Program-made: the position numbers and the translations under genes
Assembly: GCA_003963405.1 (NCBI GenBank)
Contig: RXIY01000032.1
Coordinates: 62,001-126,000, forward strand
DNA from: Hyphomicrobiales bacterium
Lineage (GTDB): Bacteria > Pseudomonadota > Alphaproteobacteria > Rhizobiales > Beijerinckiaceae
Length of the DNA stretch: 64,000 nt
Direction of reading: 5' to 3'
Shown here: one piece after another, positions 3,783 to 12,128 of the stretch
Layout of the letters: every line of letters begins with the position of its first letter
How positions within the stretch are numbered: the first letter of the stretch is position 1
Notes under the pieces: generated by a model
Told to the model about the DNA's origin: nothing
The model's input: only the letters and a program-made list of their open reading frames with translations
Databases searched by the model: none

Positions 3783-5067
3783 GTCGCGCCCTTCACGGGC
3801 GCGTGGATCGAAACACCCAGAAGGAACTGGACGGCGCCATCGGTCTTGTCGCGCCCTTCACGGGCGCGTGGATCGAAACATACCCGCGCGGGTATGCAGA
3901 CGGTTTGGCCGAAGTCGCGCCCTTCACGGGCGCGTGGATCGAAACCATGCCAGCACCAATACGCCTACAGTGAATGCCTTGTCGCGCCCTTCACGGGCGC
4001 GTGGATCGAAACGACTTGCAGCCGGTCGATTTCGGCCTGCATCGCGGTCGCGCCCTTCACGGGCGCGTGGATCGAAACATGGACATCGCGAAGACGCCTA
4101 CCGTCGGCTTCCGTCGCGCCCTTCACGGGCGCGTGGATCGAAACGTTCCACCCGAGGTTACCTTGTTGGGCAGTTCGGTCGCGCCCTTCACGGGCGCGTG
4201 GATCGAAACCGCGCATTGGCGGCCTCCTTGGCGTATCACAGGTGTCGCGCCCTTCACGGGCGCGTGGATCGAAACCGTCTCAGAAAGACTGGCATCGCTG
4301 GTTCGCGTGTCGCGCCCTTCACGGGCGCGTGGATCGAAACAATTCTTGGGCCGGGACGATTTACGCCAACCGCTGTCGCGCCCTTCACGGGCGCGTGGAT
4401 CGAAACATCAAGTCGTGACCGTATCCGGCGTCTTCCATCGCGTCGCGCCCTTCACGGGCGCGTGGATCGAAACCAGGAACGCGGCCGCAAATTCGATAAG
4501 TGCGCCCGTCGCGCCCTTCACGGGCGCGTGGATCGAAACCCTGATGAAGATTTGCAAGATGTGGAGTCGCCGAGTCGCGCCCTTCACGGGCGCGTGGATC
4601 GAAACGGCAGTCTCGCGACGGTTCGGCGCTATGATACGCGTCGCGCCCTTCACGGGCGCGTGGATCGAAACGTGAACGGGAGCTGGCCATCGACGGGACG
4701 CGGATGTCGCGCCCTTCACGGGCGCGTGGATCGAAACGTCTTCGTCCAGCCGGTCAGCGTGGTGCTGATGCGTCGCGCCCTTCACGGGCGCGTGGATCGA
4801 AACAAACATGGCGACGGCGTTATCTGATCCCGCCGCGTCGCGCCCTTCACGGGCGCGTGGATCGAAACAACGTCTCCGGCATGGGGCGGGCGGATTATAA
4901 CGGGTCGCGCCCTTCACGGGCGCGTGGATCGAAACTTTGTCGGAAAGAACACTCTCGACCAACTTGCACGTCGCGCCCTTCACGGGCGCGTGGATCGAAA
5001 CAACCATACGCGCGAGATCGTCGATCTCATCACCAGTCGCGCCCTTCACGGGCGCGTGGATCGAAAC
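3783..5067 (+). CRISPR. Type I-C CRISPR array, 20 repeats and 19 spacers
   Basis: Twenty copies of a 32-bp repeat begin with GTCGCGCCC and end with GGATCGAAAC. They start at 3783, 3848, 3914, 3980, 4047, 4113, 4178, 4244, 4309, 4375, 4442, 4508, 4574, 4640, 4706, 4772, 4837, 4904, 4970 and 5036. Spacers are 33-35 bp. The repeat can form a 7-bp stem (CGCGCCC with GGGCGCG) around TTCAC, as in type I-C crRNAs processed by Cas5, and the GAAAC end gives the + orientation. All copies read as identical, including the last. No spacer repeats within the array by eye. Confidence 0.99.
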
Positions 5068-5232: not shown

Positions 5233-5758
5233 GTTGATGGCGTCCCAGAGGAACGCAAAGGCACGATTTCCGCATTCAGTGGGCCCGAACCGCAAATTAT
5301 CGTTGCGGCGACTGAACCGAGAAGCGCAATGCCGTATCCGCCTTCATCGCTCAGGCGTTGGCGGATGGCATAGCGCCGTCCGAGATCGGCATTTTCACGC
5401 GAACGGTCGATGAACTGGCGCGGGCTCGGGCGGCCGTGGTCGCGGTGGGGAGCGAGGCCATGGAGCTGTCCGAGCAGGGGAATGAGCCTAGCGCCCGCGT
5501 TTCCATTGGCAGGATGCACCTCGCGAAGGGGCTCGAATTCAAGGCCGTCGCCGTCATGGCGTGCGACGAGGAGACGCTTCCGCTCCAGTCCAGAATAGAG
5601 GCGGCCGCAGACGAAGGGAGCTCGAAGATGTTTACGAGACTGAGCGTCAGCTTCTCTATGTTGCAGCGACGCGGGCGCGAGATCGCCTTCTCGTCACCGG
5701 CGTGCATCCTGGTCTGAATTTTTGCGAGATTTCGGCGTCTAAGTTAATGTTCACTTAA
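5233..5758 (+). pseudogene. Remnant of a UvrD/Rep-type helicase C-terminus
   Basis: The region encodes pieces of a UvrD-like helicase C-terminal domain spread over three segments. The first frame reads VDGVPEERKGTISAFSGPEP from 5233. A second frame from about 5340 reads AFIAQALADGIAPSEIGIF and then IGRMHLAKGLEFKAVAVMAC, the UvrD_C motif V region. A third frame from about 5621 reads ELEDVYETERQLLYVAATRA, the motif VI region. No ATPase domain and no start codon are left. The frameshifts are seen directly; the ancestry is inferred. It lies between the CRISPR array and the large helicase and is not a piece of the latter. Confidence 0.8.
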
Positions 5759-5787: not shown

Positions 5788-8700
5788 ATGACTGATTGTG
5801 GGCTCAAGGTTAGCTATTCCGTTGCCGAGAACGTCAATCTCGCCTTCTATCAGAACGCTGTGCCGTTCCTGCGCGAGCTAACGCTGACGAATGAAACCGG
5901 CCGAGACCTCGCTGGCGTCACCATCAAGCTGACAGCCGAGCCGCCCGTCCTGACCCCGCGCGTATGGCGCGTGGACGGGATCGCTGACAAATCGTCGCAT
6001 CATATCCGCCCCCTCGATCCAAAGCTTGATCCCACTGTCCTCGGCAGGCTTACCGCCGCACGGCGCGCGGAGCTACGCATCCTCGTCGAAGCCGGTGGCG
6101 AGGTCGTCGCTCAACAGAAAGCGGAGATCAATCTGCTACCGCCTTCGCACTGGGGCGGGATGAGCGCGGCGCCTGAACTCCTCGTCGCCTTTGTGCGGCC
6201 GAATGACCCAAACATTGATGTGATCTTGCGAGAGGCTGCGGACAAACTGGCGCAGGCCGGCCGCGACCCGGCGATCGACGGCTACAAGCAGGGCAAAAAG
6301 GCGCGCGCCTGGGAAATCGCTGAAGCGATCTGGTCGGCGCTCGCCTCCCATTCCATAGCCTATGTATTACCGCCCAAAAGCTTCGAGCGGCATGGCCAGC
6401 AAGTGCGGGGGCCGGGCGAGATCCTCTCCCGGCAGGTCGGAACCTGCCTCGATCTCTGTCTCCTTTACACCGCCTGTCTCGAACAGGCGGGGCTTAATCC
6501 GCTCATCGTCCTCACGGAGGGGCACGCCTTCACCGGCGTCTGGCTCGTCGACGAAGATTTCACCGAAACGGTGATTGACGATGCGCAGGCGCTGCGCAAG
6601 CGCGTGCAACTCCAGGAAATGGCGCTGGTCGAGACAACGCTCCTCACTGGCGCCGCGCCATCGCGATTCAGGCATGCGGTCGATCAGGGCGCCAAGCAGA
6701 TCGCCGAAGACGCGACGCCCGTTCTGGAGCTTGCCCTCGACGTCCGGCGCGCCCGTTCGGCCGGCGTCAAGCCTATGGATCTCGCCGGCGGCATGGAACT
6801 CGCAAGGGAAGCCAGCGCGGCGGGCGCTGCAGAGGTAACGCTTGAAGATCCGCCGCATTTCGAAGAAGAGTTTGAGGCTCGGGATCAGCAAGACACGAAG
6901 CCACTCGATCGGCTCGAAAGCTGGAAGCGCGCGCTGCTCGATCTGTCGCTGCGCAACCGCCTCCTGAATTTCAAGGACGGAAAGACCGTCATTCCGCTGG
7001 AATGTCCGGACCCGGCAAAGCTCGAAGACATGCTGGCCGTCGGCAAGAGGTTCAAACTCTTGGGCCGAGCGAGCGTTCTCGACGGTCAGGACGGCCGCGA
7101 TCCGATCTTGTTCGCCAGCACTTACAAGCAAGACGGCAGAAAGCGTTTTGTGCTGGAGGCCTTGGACCGCGAGGAGCTTTACACCCATGTCGCCGAAGCT
7201 GATCTTGAAGGGCGGCTAACGGATCTCTTTCGCACGGCGAGACTGGCCTTCGAGGAAGGTGGCGCCAACGTCCTTTATCTGTGCCTGGGCTTTCTAAAGT
7301 GGTCGCCCAAGGAGGGCGTCGGCCCCTACCGCGCGCCGCTGATCCTGGTTCCCGTCAGTCTAGAACGTAAGAGCGTGCGCGCCGGGTTCCGCCTTAAATT
7401 GCACGAGGACGAAAGCCGCTTCAATCCGACGCTTCTCCAGATGCTCCGCCAGGATTTCGAGCTTTCGGCGCCTGAACTCGAAGGCGATCTGCTGCGCGAC
7501 GCCTCCGGCATAGACGTCGCCGGCGTCTGGCGCATCGTGCAAAAGCACGTCAGAAACATCAGCGGCTGGGAGGTTGTCGAGGACGTTGCAGTGGCGACGC
7601 TCTCCTTCACCAAATATCTCTTATGGAAGGATCTCGTAGACCGCACGGAAGAGCTCAAGCGCAACCCTGTCGTGCGCCATATTATCGAGACGCCAACCCA
7701 CTCTTTCGAAGGCTCCGGCGTCGAATTTATCGAGCCGGAGACGCTCGACGAAGCCGTCGACCCTTCCGAGCTTTTTACGCCGCTTTTTGCCGATTCTTCG
7801 CAGCTTGCCGCCGTTGTTTCAGCTCAGCGCGGCAAAGATTTCGTTCTTTTCGGGCCGCCGGGCACAGGCAAGAGCCAGACGATCGCAAACATGATCGCGA
7901 ATTGCTTGGCCCATGGCAAAACGGTGCTGTTCGTTTCGCAGAAGACGGCCGCGCTCGAAGTCGTGCGTCGCCGGCTCGACGCCATCGGTATCGGCGACTA
8001 TTGCGTCGAGGTGCATTCGACCAAGGCGCAAAAATCCAGCGTCGTCGCCCAGCTCGCCAACGCTTGGCGCGAACGAAGCCGCGCAGACGAAGCGGGCTGG
8101 TCAGCGGCAAATGCCGAACTCGCCGCCAAACGCGACGAACTCAACCGCCTAGTCTCGGCGCTCCACCGCCGGCGCTCGAACGGCATGACTGCCTATGAAG
8201 CCTTCGGCCGCGTTATCGCCAACCGAGGCTCACATCAGGACGTCGGTCTGTCTTGGCCGGCGGATATCGACCACAACCCACAGACGCTCGCCGCTCTTGG
8301 CGCCGCAAGCGACGGACTTGCTGTCGCCGTGCGCGGGATCGGCGATCCCGCGACGCATCCTCTGAAGGGCATGCGCCAGACGCAATGGACGCCAGCCTGG
8401 CGCGACGAGACGGCCGCGGCCATCGACCGTCTCCACGGCGCCGTGCAGGCCTTGAGGCGGAACGTAGAGGCCTTCGCCGAGTCTATCGGCCTTGGCCAGC
8501 ATGTCGTGGGGCTCGCGCGTCTTTCGGAGCTCTTGAACCTCGGAGCTGTTCTGACCACGTCAGATGCCTCCGATAGCGCAGCCGCGGCCGCACTCTTGAG
8601 CGACAACGTCAAGACAGAGATCGAGCAAGCGCTGCGCGAGCTCAGGAGGCTCGCGGATCGTGCCGAGGCGTTGCGGAAGGCGATGGACACCAATTACGCG

Positions 8701-11694
8701 CCTGCTGTCCTGCGCCTCGATTTTACTCATATCGAAAGAGATTGGAACGCCGCCTGCGGGGCGAATTTTTTCGTGCGAGAGAGTCGGAAAGGCAAGGTGC
8801 GGCAGCAATTGCAGCCCTATTGCGAAACGCCGCCGCAGGATATCGCCCGGGATATTGTCCGCCTGCGCGAGCTGGCGTCGATCACGGCCCGCGCCGATGG
8901 TCAGAAAACCGCCTTCGCTGGCCTGGAGCGCCTATACCATGGGCTCAACACGGATATCGGCGCGATCGAACGCCTCATCGCCTGGTCTCTCGAAATACGC
9001 GAGGCGGTGCGGGGCTTTGCCACGGAATCAGACGACGCGGCCGGGCTGCGCGACCATGTCGCCCTGCTGCTAACGGACTATGGGCATATGTTGGCGCCTA
9101 GCGGCGCTGTCTCTGAGGCTTTTCACGCCGCGCAAACCGGCTGGGCCGACGCCTGGAGCGCCATCGTCGAACTCGCGCGCTGTGCGGGCTTCGAGGATGC
9201 CGCGGCCTTCCTCGAGCCACGCACAGATTGGGACGAAGAGCTGCTCGAGCGCAGCGCGCGCTGGCGCAGAAGTCTCCTCCAGGCGCCCCAATGGACCCAC
9301 TGGCGCGCCGCAGCGACCGAAGCGGCACAACTGGGTCTCGCGCCGCTGGTGGATGCTATCGAAGCCGGCGTTGCTCCCATCGGGGCGATTGGAGCTACTT
9401 TCGAGTTTTCATACGCACGCTGGTTTGCTGAAAAGATCGTCAATCAGGACGAGATCCTCAGCTCCTTCCTTTCGGTCCGGCACGAAGCGGCCATCGAGGC
9501 CTTCATCGCCGCGGACCAGCGAGTTGCTCAGCTGTCAAAGGAAATCATCCGTGCGCGTATAGGCGTCGACATTCCCACTCGGACAAATTTCGGCGCGGAT
9601 CCGGAATGGGGGGCGCTGGCGCGCGAAACGCAGAAGAGGGTGCAGCACATGCCGCTGCGCCAGCTCTTCGCCCGCGTTCCAAACGCACTTACCAGGCTGA
9701 CGCCCTGCGTCATGATGAGCCCGTTATCCATCGCGCAATATCTGCCTCCAGGCTCAAAGCCCTTCGATCTGGTGATCTTTGACGAAGCCTCGCAGATACA
9801 GGTGTGCGATGCCATCGGCGCCATCGCCCGCGGCAATCAGGCGGTTATCGTCGGCGATCCCGAGCAGCTGCCGCCGACGAGCGTAGGCGAGCGCGTGATA
9901 GACGCTGAAGACGACGACGTGGTGCTACCCAGCCAGAAGAGCATTCTCGATGAATGTCTTGTCTGCAACATCCCCTCCATGCGGCTGCGCTGGCATTACC
10001 GCAGCAGGCATGAAAGTCTAATCGCCTTCTCCAACACCAAATACTACAAAGGTGAGCTCGTCACCTTCCCCTCCCCCGTCACGCGCGACGATGCGGTTCG
10101 TTTCATCCATGTGCCGGATGGCATCTATGAACGGGGCGCAGCCAAGACAAACCGCAAGGAGGCGCAGGCCGTCGTCGACGAGGTTCTGCGACGCCTGAAG
10201 AGCGCCCCGCAGTCCATCGGTATCGTTACCTTCAACGCCGAACAGCAGAAGCTTATCGAAAATCTTCTCGATCAGGAGCGGCGCAGCGACCCCGCCTTGG
10301 ACAAATACTTCGACCCCAAGCAAGTTGCAGAGCCTGTTCTTGTCAAGAACATCGAGAATATTCAGGGTGATGAACGCGACGTGATTATCTTCTCCGTGGC
10401 GGTCGGTCCTGACCAGACGGGCCGCGTCACGGCGCAGATTTCCTCGTTGAACAGCGAAGGTGGACACAGGCGCCTAAACGTCGCCATCACGCGCGCGCGA
10501 CGCGAGCTGCTCGTCTTCTCGACGCTGCGGCCGGAGCAGATCGATCTTGGCCGCACGGGTGCAAGGGGCGTCGTCGATTTCAAGCATTTCCTGGAGTTTG
10601 CTTGCAAGGGCGCACAGGCGATTGCGGAATCGTTCGCCCCGACCGGACTTGACACCGAGTCGCCCTTTGAGGCCGGAGTCAAACGTGCGCTCGAGAACAA
10701 AGGCTGGCAAGTCCATGCGCAGATCGGCGTCTCGCAGTTTCGTATCGACCTCGGCGTGGTTCACCCGGACGCGCCCGGACGCTATCTCGCTGGCGTTGAA
10801 TGCGACGGCGCGACCTACCATCGCTCCGCCACCGCGCGCGATCGTGACCGGCTGCGCGAGTGGGTTCTCACCGACCTCGGCTGGCGGATACGCCGCATCT
10901 GGAGCACGGATTGGTGGATGAATCCTGACGCCGCACTCGAAAAGCTTCACGCGCGGCTGGAACAGGATCTCGCAGCGGACCGCGCCGCGGCGCCTAAGAT
11001 TGATGACTCGCAGCATTACCCGCCCACGCCGACCGGCGAAACGGAGCATGCCCCCCAACCGCCGCCGTTACAGCCGACACTCGAGCCACTCGCGTCGGAG
11101 ACTGACGACGCCCTGGCTGGGAACCAAAGTCCCGCCAAGGTCTATGCCGATATGGTTCGAACGCCTGAGAAAGTGTCCGAGGCGGTCTACCGGCTTGCCG
11201 ACCCGACGACTGTCGCCGCGCCCGACGCATCGCGTTTCTATGACAGGGATTATCGGCCCCTGCTGCGCGAGATGATCGATCATGTCGCCGCGGTCGAAGG
11301 GCCTATCTTTTTCGACATTCTAGTCGAACGCGTCGCGCGCGCGCATGGTTTCAAACGCGCTGCCGACCGCATACAAGGGATTGTGAAGACAGCACTTGGC
11401 GCCAACCGCTTGGCCGTGACCCGCGAGGGTGACCGGGATATCGTCTGGCCGCCGGGCGCCGATCCTGCGGATCTACCGCCGTATCGGCACGGACAGCGCG
11501 ATCACGGCGATATTCCATTGCAGGAGCTTGCAAGTCTGGCCGCTCGATTCCGGCGCGATGGTCTCGAAGGCGAACTGCTCGTTCGAGAGATTCAGGATCA
11601 TTTCCGGCTCGGCCGACTTGCCACCACCACCAGAGAACGTTTCGAAAATGCTATCGAGCTTGCATTGCGGGCCCGGCAGGAAGGACGTGATTAA
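5788..11694 (+). CDS. Giant DUF4011-helicase-Vsr-DUF3320 protein with transglutaminase-like N-terminus (Hhe-type defence candidate)
   Basis: This 1968-residue protein combines several domains. Residues 1-120 are beta-rich. Residues 130-260 resemble a transglutaminase-like fold, with Cys220 in GTCLDLCLLY, His246 in GHAFTGVWL and an acidic residue at 255-257. The DUF4011 region starts near 373 (LESWKRALLDLSLRNRLLNF). The SF1 helicase core has Walker A GPPGTGKS at 689-696, DEAS at 1332-1335, GDPEQLPP from 1356, QGDERD at 1526-1531 and NVAITRAR at 1564-1571. A Vsr-like nuclease follows at 1622-1715 with Asp1654 and Glu1671-Cys-Asp. A DUF3320 segment lies near 1815-1870. This architecture matches the antiphage type reported as Hhe. 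It stands alone beside the CRISPR locus. Function here is inferred. Confidence 0.9.
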   Translation: MTDCGLKVSYSVAENVNLAFYQNAVPFLRELTLTNETGRDLAGVTIKLTAEPPVLTPRVWRVDGIADKSSHHIRPLDPKLDPTVLGRLTAARRAELRILVEAGGEVVAQQKAEINLLPPSHWGGMSAAPELLVAFVRPNDPNIDVILREAADKLAQAGRDPAIDGYKQGKKARAWEIAEAIWSALASHSIAYVLPPKSFERHGQQVRGPGEILSRQVGTCLDLCLLYTACLEQAGLNPLIVLTEGHAFTGVWLVDEDFTETVIDDAQALRKRVQLQEMALVETTLLTGAAPSRFRHAVDQGAKQIAEDATPVLELALDVRRARSAGVKPMDLAGGMELAREASAAGAAEVTLEDPPHFEEEFEARDQQDTKPLDRLESWKRALLDLSLRNRLLNFKDGKTVIPLECPDPAKLEDMLAVGKRFKLLGRASVLDGQDGRDPILFASTYKQDGRKRFVLEALDREELYTHVAEADLEGRLTDLFRTARLAFEEGGANVLYLCLGFLKWSPKEGVGPYRAPLILVPVSLERKSVRAGFRLKLHEDESRFNPTLLQMLRQDFELSAPELEGDLLRDASGIDVAGVWRIVQKHVRNISGWEVVEDVAVATLSFTKYLLWKDLVDRTEELKRNPVVRHIIETPTHSFEGSGVEFIEPETLDEAVDPSELFTPLFADSSQLAAVVSAQRGKDFVLFGPPGTGKSQTIANMIANCLAHGKTVLFVSQKTAALEVVRRRLDAIGIGDYCVEVHSTKAQKSSVVAQLANAWRERSRADEAGWSAANAELAAKRDELNRLVSALHRRRSNGMTAYEAFGRVIANRGSHQDVGLSWPADIDHNPQTLAALGAASDGLAVAVRGIGDPATHPLKGMRQTQWTPAWRDETAAAIDRLHGAVQALRRNVEAFAESIGLGQHVVGLARLSELLNLGAVLTTSDASDSAAAAALLSDNVKTEIEQALRELRRLADRAEALRKAMDTNYAPAVLRLDFTHIERDWNAACGANFFVRESRKGKVRQQLQPYCETPPQDIARDIVRLRELASITARADGQKTAFAGLERLYHGLNTDIGAIERLIAWSLEIREAVRGFATESDDAAGLRDHVALLLTDYGHMLAPSGAVSEAFHAAQTGWADAWSAIVELARCAGFEDAAAFLEPRTDWDEELLERSARWRRSLLQAPQWTHWRAAATEAAQLGLAPLVDAIEAGVAPIGAIGATFEFSYARWFAEKIVNQDEILSSFLSVRHEAAIEAFIAADQRVAQLSKEIIRARIGVDIPTRTNFGADPEWGALARETQKRVQHMPLRQLFARVPNALTRLTPCVMMSPLSIAQYLPPGSKPFDLVIFDEASQIQVCDAIGAIARGNQAVIVGDPEQLPPTSVGERVIDAEDDDVVLPSQKSILDECLVCNIPSMRLRWHYRSRHESLIAFSNTKYYKGELVTFPSPVTRDDAVRFIHVPDGIYERGAAKTNRKEAQAVVDEVLRRLKSAPQSIGIVTFNAEQQKLIENLLDQERRSDPALDKYFDPKQVAEPVLVKNIENIQGDERDVIIFSVAVGPDQTGRVTAQISSLNSEGGHRRLNVAITRARRELLVFSTLRPEQIDLGRTGARGVVDFKHFLEFACKGAQAIAESFAPTGLDTESPFEAGVKRALENKGWQVHAQIGVSQFRIDLGVVHPDAPGRYLAGVECDGATYHRSATARDRDRLREWVLTDLGWRIRRIWSTDWWMNPDAALEKLHARLEQDLAADRAAAPKIDDSQHYPPTPTGETEHAPQPPPLQPTLEPLASETDDALAGNQSPAKVYADMVRTPEKVSEAVYRLADPTTVAAPDASRFYDRDYRPLLREMIDHVAAVEGPIFFDILVERVARAHGFKRAADRIQGIVKTALGANRLAVTREGDRDIVWPPGADPADLPPYRHGQRDHGDIPLQELASLAARFRRDGLEGELLVREIQDHFRLGRLATTTRERFENAIELALRARQEGRD

Positions 11695-12128
11695 GGTTTG
11701 GGGAAACAGACCCCATATTTCTCTAGCCAGTTGGCGAGGGTCTGATAGCTCGGCAGGCCGAGCATGACGGCGGCGCGGGTCTTGTTGCCGTGCGCCGCCG
11801 TCATGGCGCAGGAGAGATAATGCCGCGCGACCTCGGCCAGCAGCTCCGGCAGATCGACGCCTGGCTCCAGCGCGCGGTCGAGCACCGCGTCGCCCCCCCC
11901 ACCACCGCGCGCGGCAGCAGCGCGTCGGCGATATCGGCGGCCTCGATCGTCTTGCCGTCTCACCAGACGGCCGCACGGCACAGCGTGTTCTCCAGCTCGC
12001 GGATGTTGCCCGGCTAGGTCTGCCGCATCAGCAAGTTCTTGGCCTCCGCCACGATGTTCCTCGGCGTGAAGCCGGGCTCCCTGACGCTCTGTTGGCCCAC
12101 CCAAACGCCTTCTACCCCGAGCATTCAC
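11691..12128 (-). pseudogene. Remnant of a sigma-54-dependent activator (C-terminal Fis-type HTH)
   Basis: Read on the minus strand, the end of the region encodes DLPELLAEVARHYLSCAMTA and then NKTRAAVMLGLPSYQTLANW, a Fis-like DNA-binding end of a sigma-54 activator. Upstream, in another frame, PGNIRELENTLCRAAVW can be read, the conserved end of the AAA domain. That frame is broken by a TAG just before PGNIRELEN, where the family has Trp, and by a TGA after AAVW. A frameshift then separates it from the HTH part. The N-terminal domains are missing. It lies between the giant helicase and modC and overlaps the modC end slightly. Confidence 0.8.

Follow-up and report, generated by a model that had tools for sequence, protein, structure and literature searches.

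A probable ProA-type anti-phage protein with a conserved Cys-His-Glu site in a predicted transglutaminase-like front domain

The window, i.e. the whole stretch of 64,000 nucleotides analysed here, carries at 5788..11694 on the plus strand an intact single ORF of 1968 codons plus stop, which very probably encodes a ProA-type defence protein. Taken together, the data are probably best explained by a stand-alone ProA-type anti-phage protein with a working cysteine hydrolase at its front, a helicase and a nuclease. The family, the domain order, the predicted folds, the conserved sites and the absence of a recurrent partner gene were obtained by sequence analysis and prediction.

Results

The window protein scores 2079.3 bits against the NCBIfam equivalog NF058533, "anti-phage protein ProA", and so passes its curated cut-off of 1500. 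The match is nearly full length and includes the N-terminal module, residues 17-1939 aligning with positions 1-1899 of the 1903 positions of the profile, and we found no difference between NF058533 and the window protein. The protein is an additional member of an already named family, the family itself being known, and the "Prometheus" system of DefenseFinder is presumably the same as ProA. In PADLOC, the best match is PDC-S37 (1182 bits, residues 374-1959), and Hhe obtains 604 bits. Since the PDC-S37 profile (1550 positions) matches the window protein solely downstream of the module, it describes the shared core. Two module-less proteins also pass the NF058533 cut-off (L017, 1533 bits; L018, 1512 bits), so the name ProA covers two architectures. 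A literature search with most subscription journals outside its scope found neither a mechanism for ProA nor the origin of its name.

A sequence-only reading of this gene had proposed that its layout is that of the Hhe antiphage gene. Hhe has DUF4011, a helicase and a Vsr-like nuclease in common with the window protein, and it is the second best family in both PADLOC and NCBIfam. However, the window protein obtains only 841.7 bits against the Hhe profile NF042953 (cut-off 2000), and in the tree described below it lies on a branch separate from six rows that we labelled Hhe-like, none of which shows a front module within its first 420 residues. The two Hhe-like rows that were scanned reach 1325 and 1135 bits, which is also below the Hhe cut-off, so that the comparison is with relatives and not with a certified Hhe. 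We rejected this assignment and consider it highly improbable that the window protein is an Hhe system.

All domains lie on the plus strand. The chain begins with a predicted N-terminal beta-sandwich (about residues 5-118, 5800..6141; AlphaFold2 model), followed by a probable transglutaminase-like domain (residues 123-333, 6154..6786) that is proposed from an AlphaFold2 core model, Foldseek and weak PF04473 and PF01841 matches. DUF4011 comes next (residues 383-553, 6934..7446; Pfam, 2.3e-45), and then, over about residues 654-1578 (7747..10521), a UPF1-like SF1 helicase that contains a long insert, identified by Pfam (AAA_11, 1.3e-15; AAA_12, 2e-20) and by PDB sequence matches to SMUBP-2, SEN1 and UPF1 over residues 1309-1581. 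Its Walker A motif GPPGTGKS is found at residues 689-696 (7852..7875) and the Walker B Asp-Glu at residues 1332-1333 (9781..9786). The C-terminal part contains the Vsr-like PD-(D/E)xK nuclease MTES_1575 (residues 1627-1724, 10666..10959; Pfam, 7.7e-35) and DUF3320 (residues 1816-1863, 11233..11376; Pfam, 3.9e-15). The ORF and the Pfam matches bear out the order that had been read from the letters, a Cys220/His246 segment ahead of a DUF4011-helicase-Vsr-DUF3320 chain, and both motifs quoted for that segment, GTCLDLCLLY and GHAFTGVWL, are present in the translation.

We then looked at the front module. No Pfam family matches the first 331 residues over its gathering score, and no transglutaminase profile of Pfam attains its gathering score in the window protein: PF04473 gives an E of 0.27 with the whole protein and of 0.0075 with the isolated front piece (16.2 bits, gathering score 20.5), and the best Pfam match for residues 1-331 is DUF553, "transglutaminase-like", with an E of 0.029 that falls to 0.0075 with a shorter piece. 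The profile comparison proposed for this segment thus returned a PF04473 match, which is weak and stays below the gathering score. When 58 module sequences were scanned singly (E up to 0.1), PF04473 was found in 18 of them (best 5.8e-4) and PF01841, Transglut_core, in 8 (best 0.005). A search of PDB sequences with the module profile gave nothing credible.

An AlphaFold2 model of residues 1-375, fed with 58 aligned homologous sequences, has a mean pLDDT of 88.6 and a pTM of 0.83 and shows a beta-sandwich followed by an alpha/beta domain. The strands of the sandwich lie between residues 6 and 116, with ten-residue pLDDT means of 91-97 past residue 10, and the transglutaminase-like domain modelled alone reaches a pLDDT of 92.4 and a pTM of 0.91. 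In the model, the candidate nucleophile Cys220 (codon TGC, 6445..6447) opens helix 220-233, the candidate general base His246 (codon CAC, 6523..6525) opens strand 246-252, and Glu282 (6631..6633), the candidate third residue of a triad, stands just past strand 278-281. Cys220 and His246 are predicted with confidence at the helix start and strand start expected of a transglutaminase-like fold, and this helix/strand order argues against the two residues lying far apart. In the transglutaminase-like superfamily the third catalytic residue is usually an Asp. Here the candidate is Glu282 and not the Asp looked for, a position that the earlier reading had left unnamed; among rows with Cys and His, an Asp occurs as third residue only in L050.

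Foldseek against the PDB gave no match at E <= 0.001 for the transglutaminase-like domain. The best E, 1.6e-3, is to a doublet-microtubule assembly, and query-normalised TM-scores range from 0.24 to 0.39 across the first 23 ranks. Seven of the top ten ranks are PNGase, putative protease or transglutaminase chains: PNGase at ranks 2, 7 and 9, and, among the others, the putative cysteine protease 3isr (two chains), the putative protease 3kd4 and the transglutaminase 4xz7. The remaining three (ranks 1, 3 and 10) are doublet-microtubule assemblies. Lower ranks include TgpA, TglA, PeiP and Transglutaminase 2 (TG2); a LapD-type domain occupies rank 11, and menin appears from rank 24 on. We take PNGase, TgpA, 3isr, 3kd4, 4xz7 and the other enzymes named to share the transglutaminase-like superfamily fold. 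For the two-domain model, the best match is a beta-galactosidase (3.6e-4), followed by TG2 at 4.0e-4, where the aligned part may be the sandwich. With a confident model, distant but fitting structural neighbours and strong conservation, the proposal of a transglutaminase-like front domain is supported, as a distant version of that predicted fold.

The Foldseek lists also bear on the chemistry of the domain. If it were a true transferase, the second possibility raised by the earlier reading, it would cross-link or deamidate proteins, and TG2 chains are indeed present in both lists, although for the domain itself they are weak (E 0.13 and worse) and in the two-domain list the match may be to the beta-sandwich. 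The closest matches of the domain are instead PNGase and putative protease chains, and bacterial transglutaminase-like domains are for the most part regarded as peptidases. We therefore regard a transferase as improbable and lean towards a peptidase rather than a transferase or deamidase.

The conservation of the site was followed in several locus sets. An alignment of 58 module sequences has 29 columns without variation, which include Cys220, His246 and Glu282, and Gln204 (6397..6399) is invariant as well. The order, class, phylum and genome_contigs sets overlap, and Cys-His-Glu is found in 16 of 18 ProA-type loci from the order search, in 9 of 10 loci from the class search, where the lone exception is again the G042 locus described below, in 12 of 12 from the phylum search (the best 12 of 33 match rows, 29 genomes) and in 79 of 80 loci from genome_contigs, plus one Cys-His-Asp. 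In this last set the count of Cys is biased, one of the two search patterns containing the Cys; His and Glu are in neither. Substitution rates in seven close pairs, for which several dS values are saturated, gave a dN/dS computable for the core in six pairs (0.030-0.268) and for the remainder in six (0.056-0.234); the core was below the remainder in just three of five comparable pairs and less constrained in the other two.

These counts have to be weighed against the idea that the transglutaminase-like domain has no catalytic activity and only recognises or docks a phage protein or DNA. Rad4/XPC uses a transglutaminase-like fold for DNA binding, its chains are found further down in the Foldseek results (E of 0.23 at best), and module-less relatives exist. 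However, a pure binding domain needs no three catalytic positions, and of 109 profile rows, in which a few loci are entered under two ids, 106 have Cys, His and Glu/Asp, so that we see an idle domain as rather unlikely. We are fairly confident that the triad Cys220-His246-Glu282 is catalytic, and the strong conservation of this front-end site suggests that the protein acts on protein as well as on DNA.

The two exceptions in the order search, G042 and G147, which represent a single chromosomal lineage, have Ala, Met and Asp in place of Cys, His and Glu. Their copies (L024, 1360-7170, plus strand, and L034, 4656-10460, minus strand, respectively) also lack the nuclease Glu and His, whereas every one of the 85 rows that have Cys-His-Glu and could be read at the nuclease motif retains both; the motif was unread in 10 further rows with Cys-His-Glu, in the genome_contigs row with Cys-His-Asp, and in all class and phylum loci, whose sequences are too short. 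Both copies are full-length ProA homologues in a chromosomal setting with flanks in common, an amidase-like gene on one side and, some kb off on the other, ribosomal L21/L27-like genes (by eye), and their helicase motifs look intact. They are identical at 1699 of 1935 residues, with a dN of 0.071, a dS of 0.643 and a dN/dS of about 0.11, values which show copies apparently under purifying selection. A homologue is present in four of four genomes examined from the genus of G042, and one of these, G1002, has the same type of copy in two frames.

A third such copy, a distant full-length ProA homologue in a chromosomal setting of G1001 (L193, 6498-12419, plus strand; 38% identity), is located near apparent dnaN and recF genes (named by eye). 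Its Cys is replaced by Ser, the Walker A Lys by Val, and its nuclease residues are altered. Because it keeps the His and Glu, residue loss need not hit all three positions, and because its ATPase site is lost too, a specific link between protease and nuclease is weakened. The joint loss of triad and nuclease, in at most two lineages of one genus, may reflect general decay, and it is possible that the lost-residue copies are domesticated regulators or decoys.

To place the module among relatives, a tree of the shared core was built by a quick method from 39 rows (26 module-bearing, 7 module-less and 6 labelled Hhe-like), some of them on long branches. All 26 module-bearing rows are on one side of a branch with a support of 100, and each of the three classes forms one side of a branch (supports 100, 100 and 96). 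In the order search (297 genomes), a count from the match rows puts 21 genomes above the ProA cut-off, of which 16 have the module and 5 lack it; the module-less relatives match the helicase-nuclease part of the profile. No separate module gene was detected at E <= 0.001 in any of six genomes with a module-less relative (best 0.2); G233, to which the seventh module-less row of the tree belongs, was outside this search. Module-less relatives thus exist without a module encoded elsewhere in these six, and some related machines do without it.

The genome of the window itself yielded one gene of this type. Among 39 genomes of its genus, G1030 has a full-length relative with 40% identity, seven more have only partial or weak matches, and the same-species genome G1019 has no match. 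Matches were obtained in 482 plasmid records, 62 of them with one place covering at least 80% of the query, and at 7 loci of viral contigs. This spread across plasmids, viral contigs and scattered genomes is the pattern of a mobile gene. A DNA similarity search with the first 3.9 kb gave no match in E. coli genomes; at the protein level, a homologue (L113) is found in a genome_contigs record titled Escherichia coli. In G330, the homologue appears as two adjacent frames of 917 and 841 codons (L148, 6072-11360, plus strand) with about 15 bases between them, which may be either a split gene or a frameshift.

The front cassette is also seen outside ProA. In G029, a protein of 763 residues (L031, 5432-7720, minus strand), whose gene adjoins that of a DUF7379 alpha/beta hydrolase, ends in a C-terminal part made up of the sandwich and the transglutaminase-like domain. 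Its N-terminal part is CHAT-like by eye and matches no Pfam family, and a search of 385 genomes with this complete protein gave a match extending past the cassette in G029 only. The combination of beta-sandwich and candidate protease is reused in at least one other architecture, known from this one genome. Cys, His and a Glu-Thr-Thr motif also occur in more distant relatives, which are proteins of G1000, G793 and G1018. The neighbours of two of these transglutaminase-like motif genes (G793, L147, 7250-8422, minus strand; G1000, L146, 7464-9065, minus strand) resemble glycosyltransferases, and the G793 protein has a signal-peptide-like start (by eye).

Finally, we examined the surroundings of the gene. 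As had been pointed out, a CRISPR locus lies beside it: type I-C cas genes and an array at 3783-5067 on the plus strand, with 20 exact copies of a 32-base repeat, are located upstream, and the array ends only 720 bases from the gene. This proximity would fit an accessory of the type I-C system. However, an exact-repeat array accompanies only one of 80 homologous loci (median 17 kb; degenerate or more distant arrays would escape), and no cas gene is found among the 14 annotated features round one plasmid copy. Since, in addition, no neighbour recurs in more than five loci, the neighbourhood is real but incidental, and we rejected the accessory role as extremely unlikely. Likewise, a hidden partner gene was rejected, as the most frequent neighbour is found in just 5 of the 80 loci (ORFs of at least 80 aa, blastp 1e-8, half of the longer length). 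These five loci, from Methylobacterium/Methylorubrum, have an ORF of 1388-1540 aa upstream, of which the one copy scanned (L044) gave only a weak PG_binding_1 match.

Between the array and the gene, at 5358-5717 on the plus strand, lies a fragment from the C-terminal end of a UvrD-like helicase; it matches UvrD_C at 1.4e-5, its 25.2 bits falling slightly short of the gathering score of 25.6. On the other side, an ORF at 11691-12128 on the minus strand contains a Fis-type HTH_8 (1.7e-5) and may be left over from a sigma-54 type regulator; beyond it, modC, modB and modA follow on the minus strand.

Discussion

The gene had been put forward as a little-explored system, which turns out to be half true: the family already has a curated NCBI anti-phage name, and the idea that such giants cleave proteins dates from 2013, when Anantharaman et al. 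(PMC3710099) put it forward for HEPN-bearing relatives. According to the same paper, the MTES_1575-type giants share with the window protein a transglutaminase-like domain, an SF-I helicase and a Vsr nuclease, together with winged helices overlapping DUF3320 and the lack of a modification gene. Unlike the window protein, modelled with a beta-sandwich at its N-terminus, they have an N-terminal HEPN there, and Pfam, searched with residues 1-331 as far as an E of 10, gave no match to HEPN. Another article, PMC7522526, was set aside, the passages considered being unrelated.

How could the parts work together in a stand-alone ProA-type protein? The SF1 helicase would recognise foreign nucleic acid or move along it, and the Vsr-like nuclease would cut it. 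The beta-sandwich and transglutaminase-like domain would form a working cysteine hydrolase, most likely a Cys220-His246-Glu282 peptidase. Its activity would be tied to that of the nuclease in one of two ways, the peptidase either cleaving its own chain or a partner and thereby freeing the nuclease, or acting as an additional effector that cuts a host or phage protein. The G042 and G147 copies, which lost the triad together with the nuclease Glu and His, and the 85 readable rows that keep both speak for such a coupling, which we put forward tentatively. A fuller version, in which foreign DNA leads the helicase to switch on the Cys-His-Glu peptidase of transglutaminase fold, and this peptidase then releases or licenses the Vsr-like nuclease, would make ProA a single-chain sensor-protease-nuclease; we regard this scheme as rather doubtful.

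In 2025, proteases were described to activate pro-nucleases in Hachiman and AVAST (PMC12799240). The nuclease-protease pairs of Hachiman, AVAST and Canu resemble ProA in that a protease and a DNase belong to the same defence pathway, which in Hachiman also includes a helicase. In contrast, the trypsin-like or caspase protease and the pro-nuclease of these systems are separate proteins in the same source, and the link to ProA is an analogy only. If the single-chain scheme were true, ProA would be the one-gene counterpart of such pairs.

The points that seem to merit further attention are the close conservation of the Cys-His-Glu site and whether this site is coupled to the nuclease. The 2013 suggestion of protein cleavage is turned into a sharp question about three residues: they are nearly invariant save in copies whose nuclease residues are lost as well, and protection would be expected to depend on them if proteins are among the targets. 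In that case, a single polypeptide would combine a DNase with its control by a protease, and the natural copies that have lost these residues would offer a ready control.
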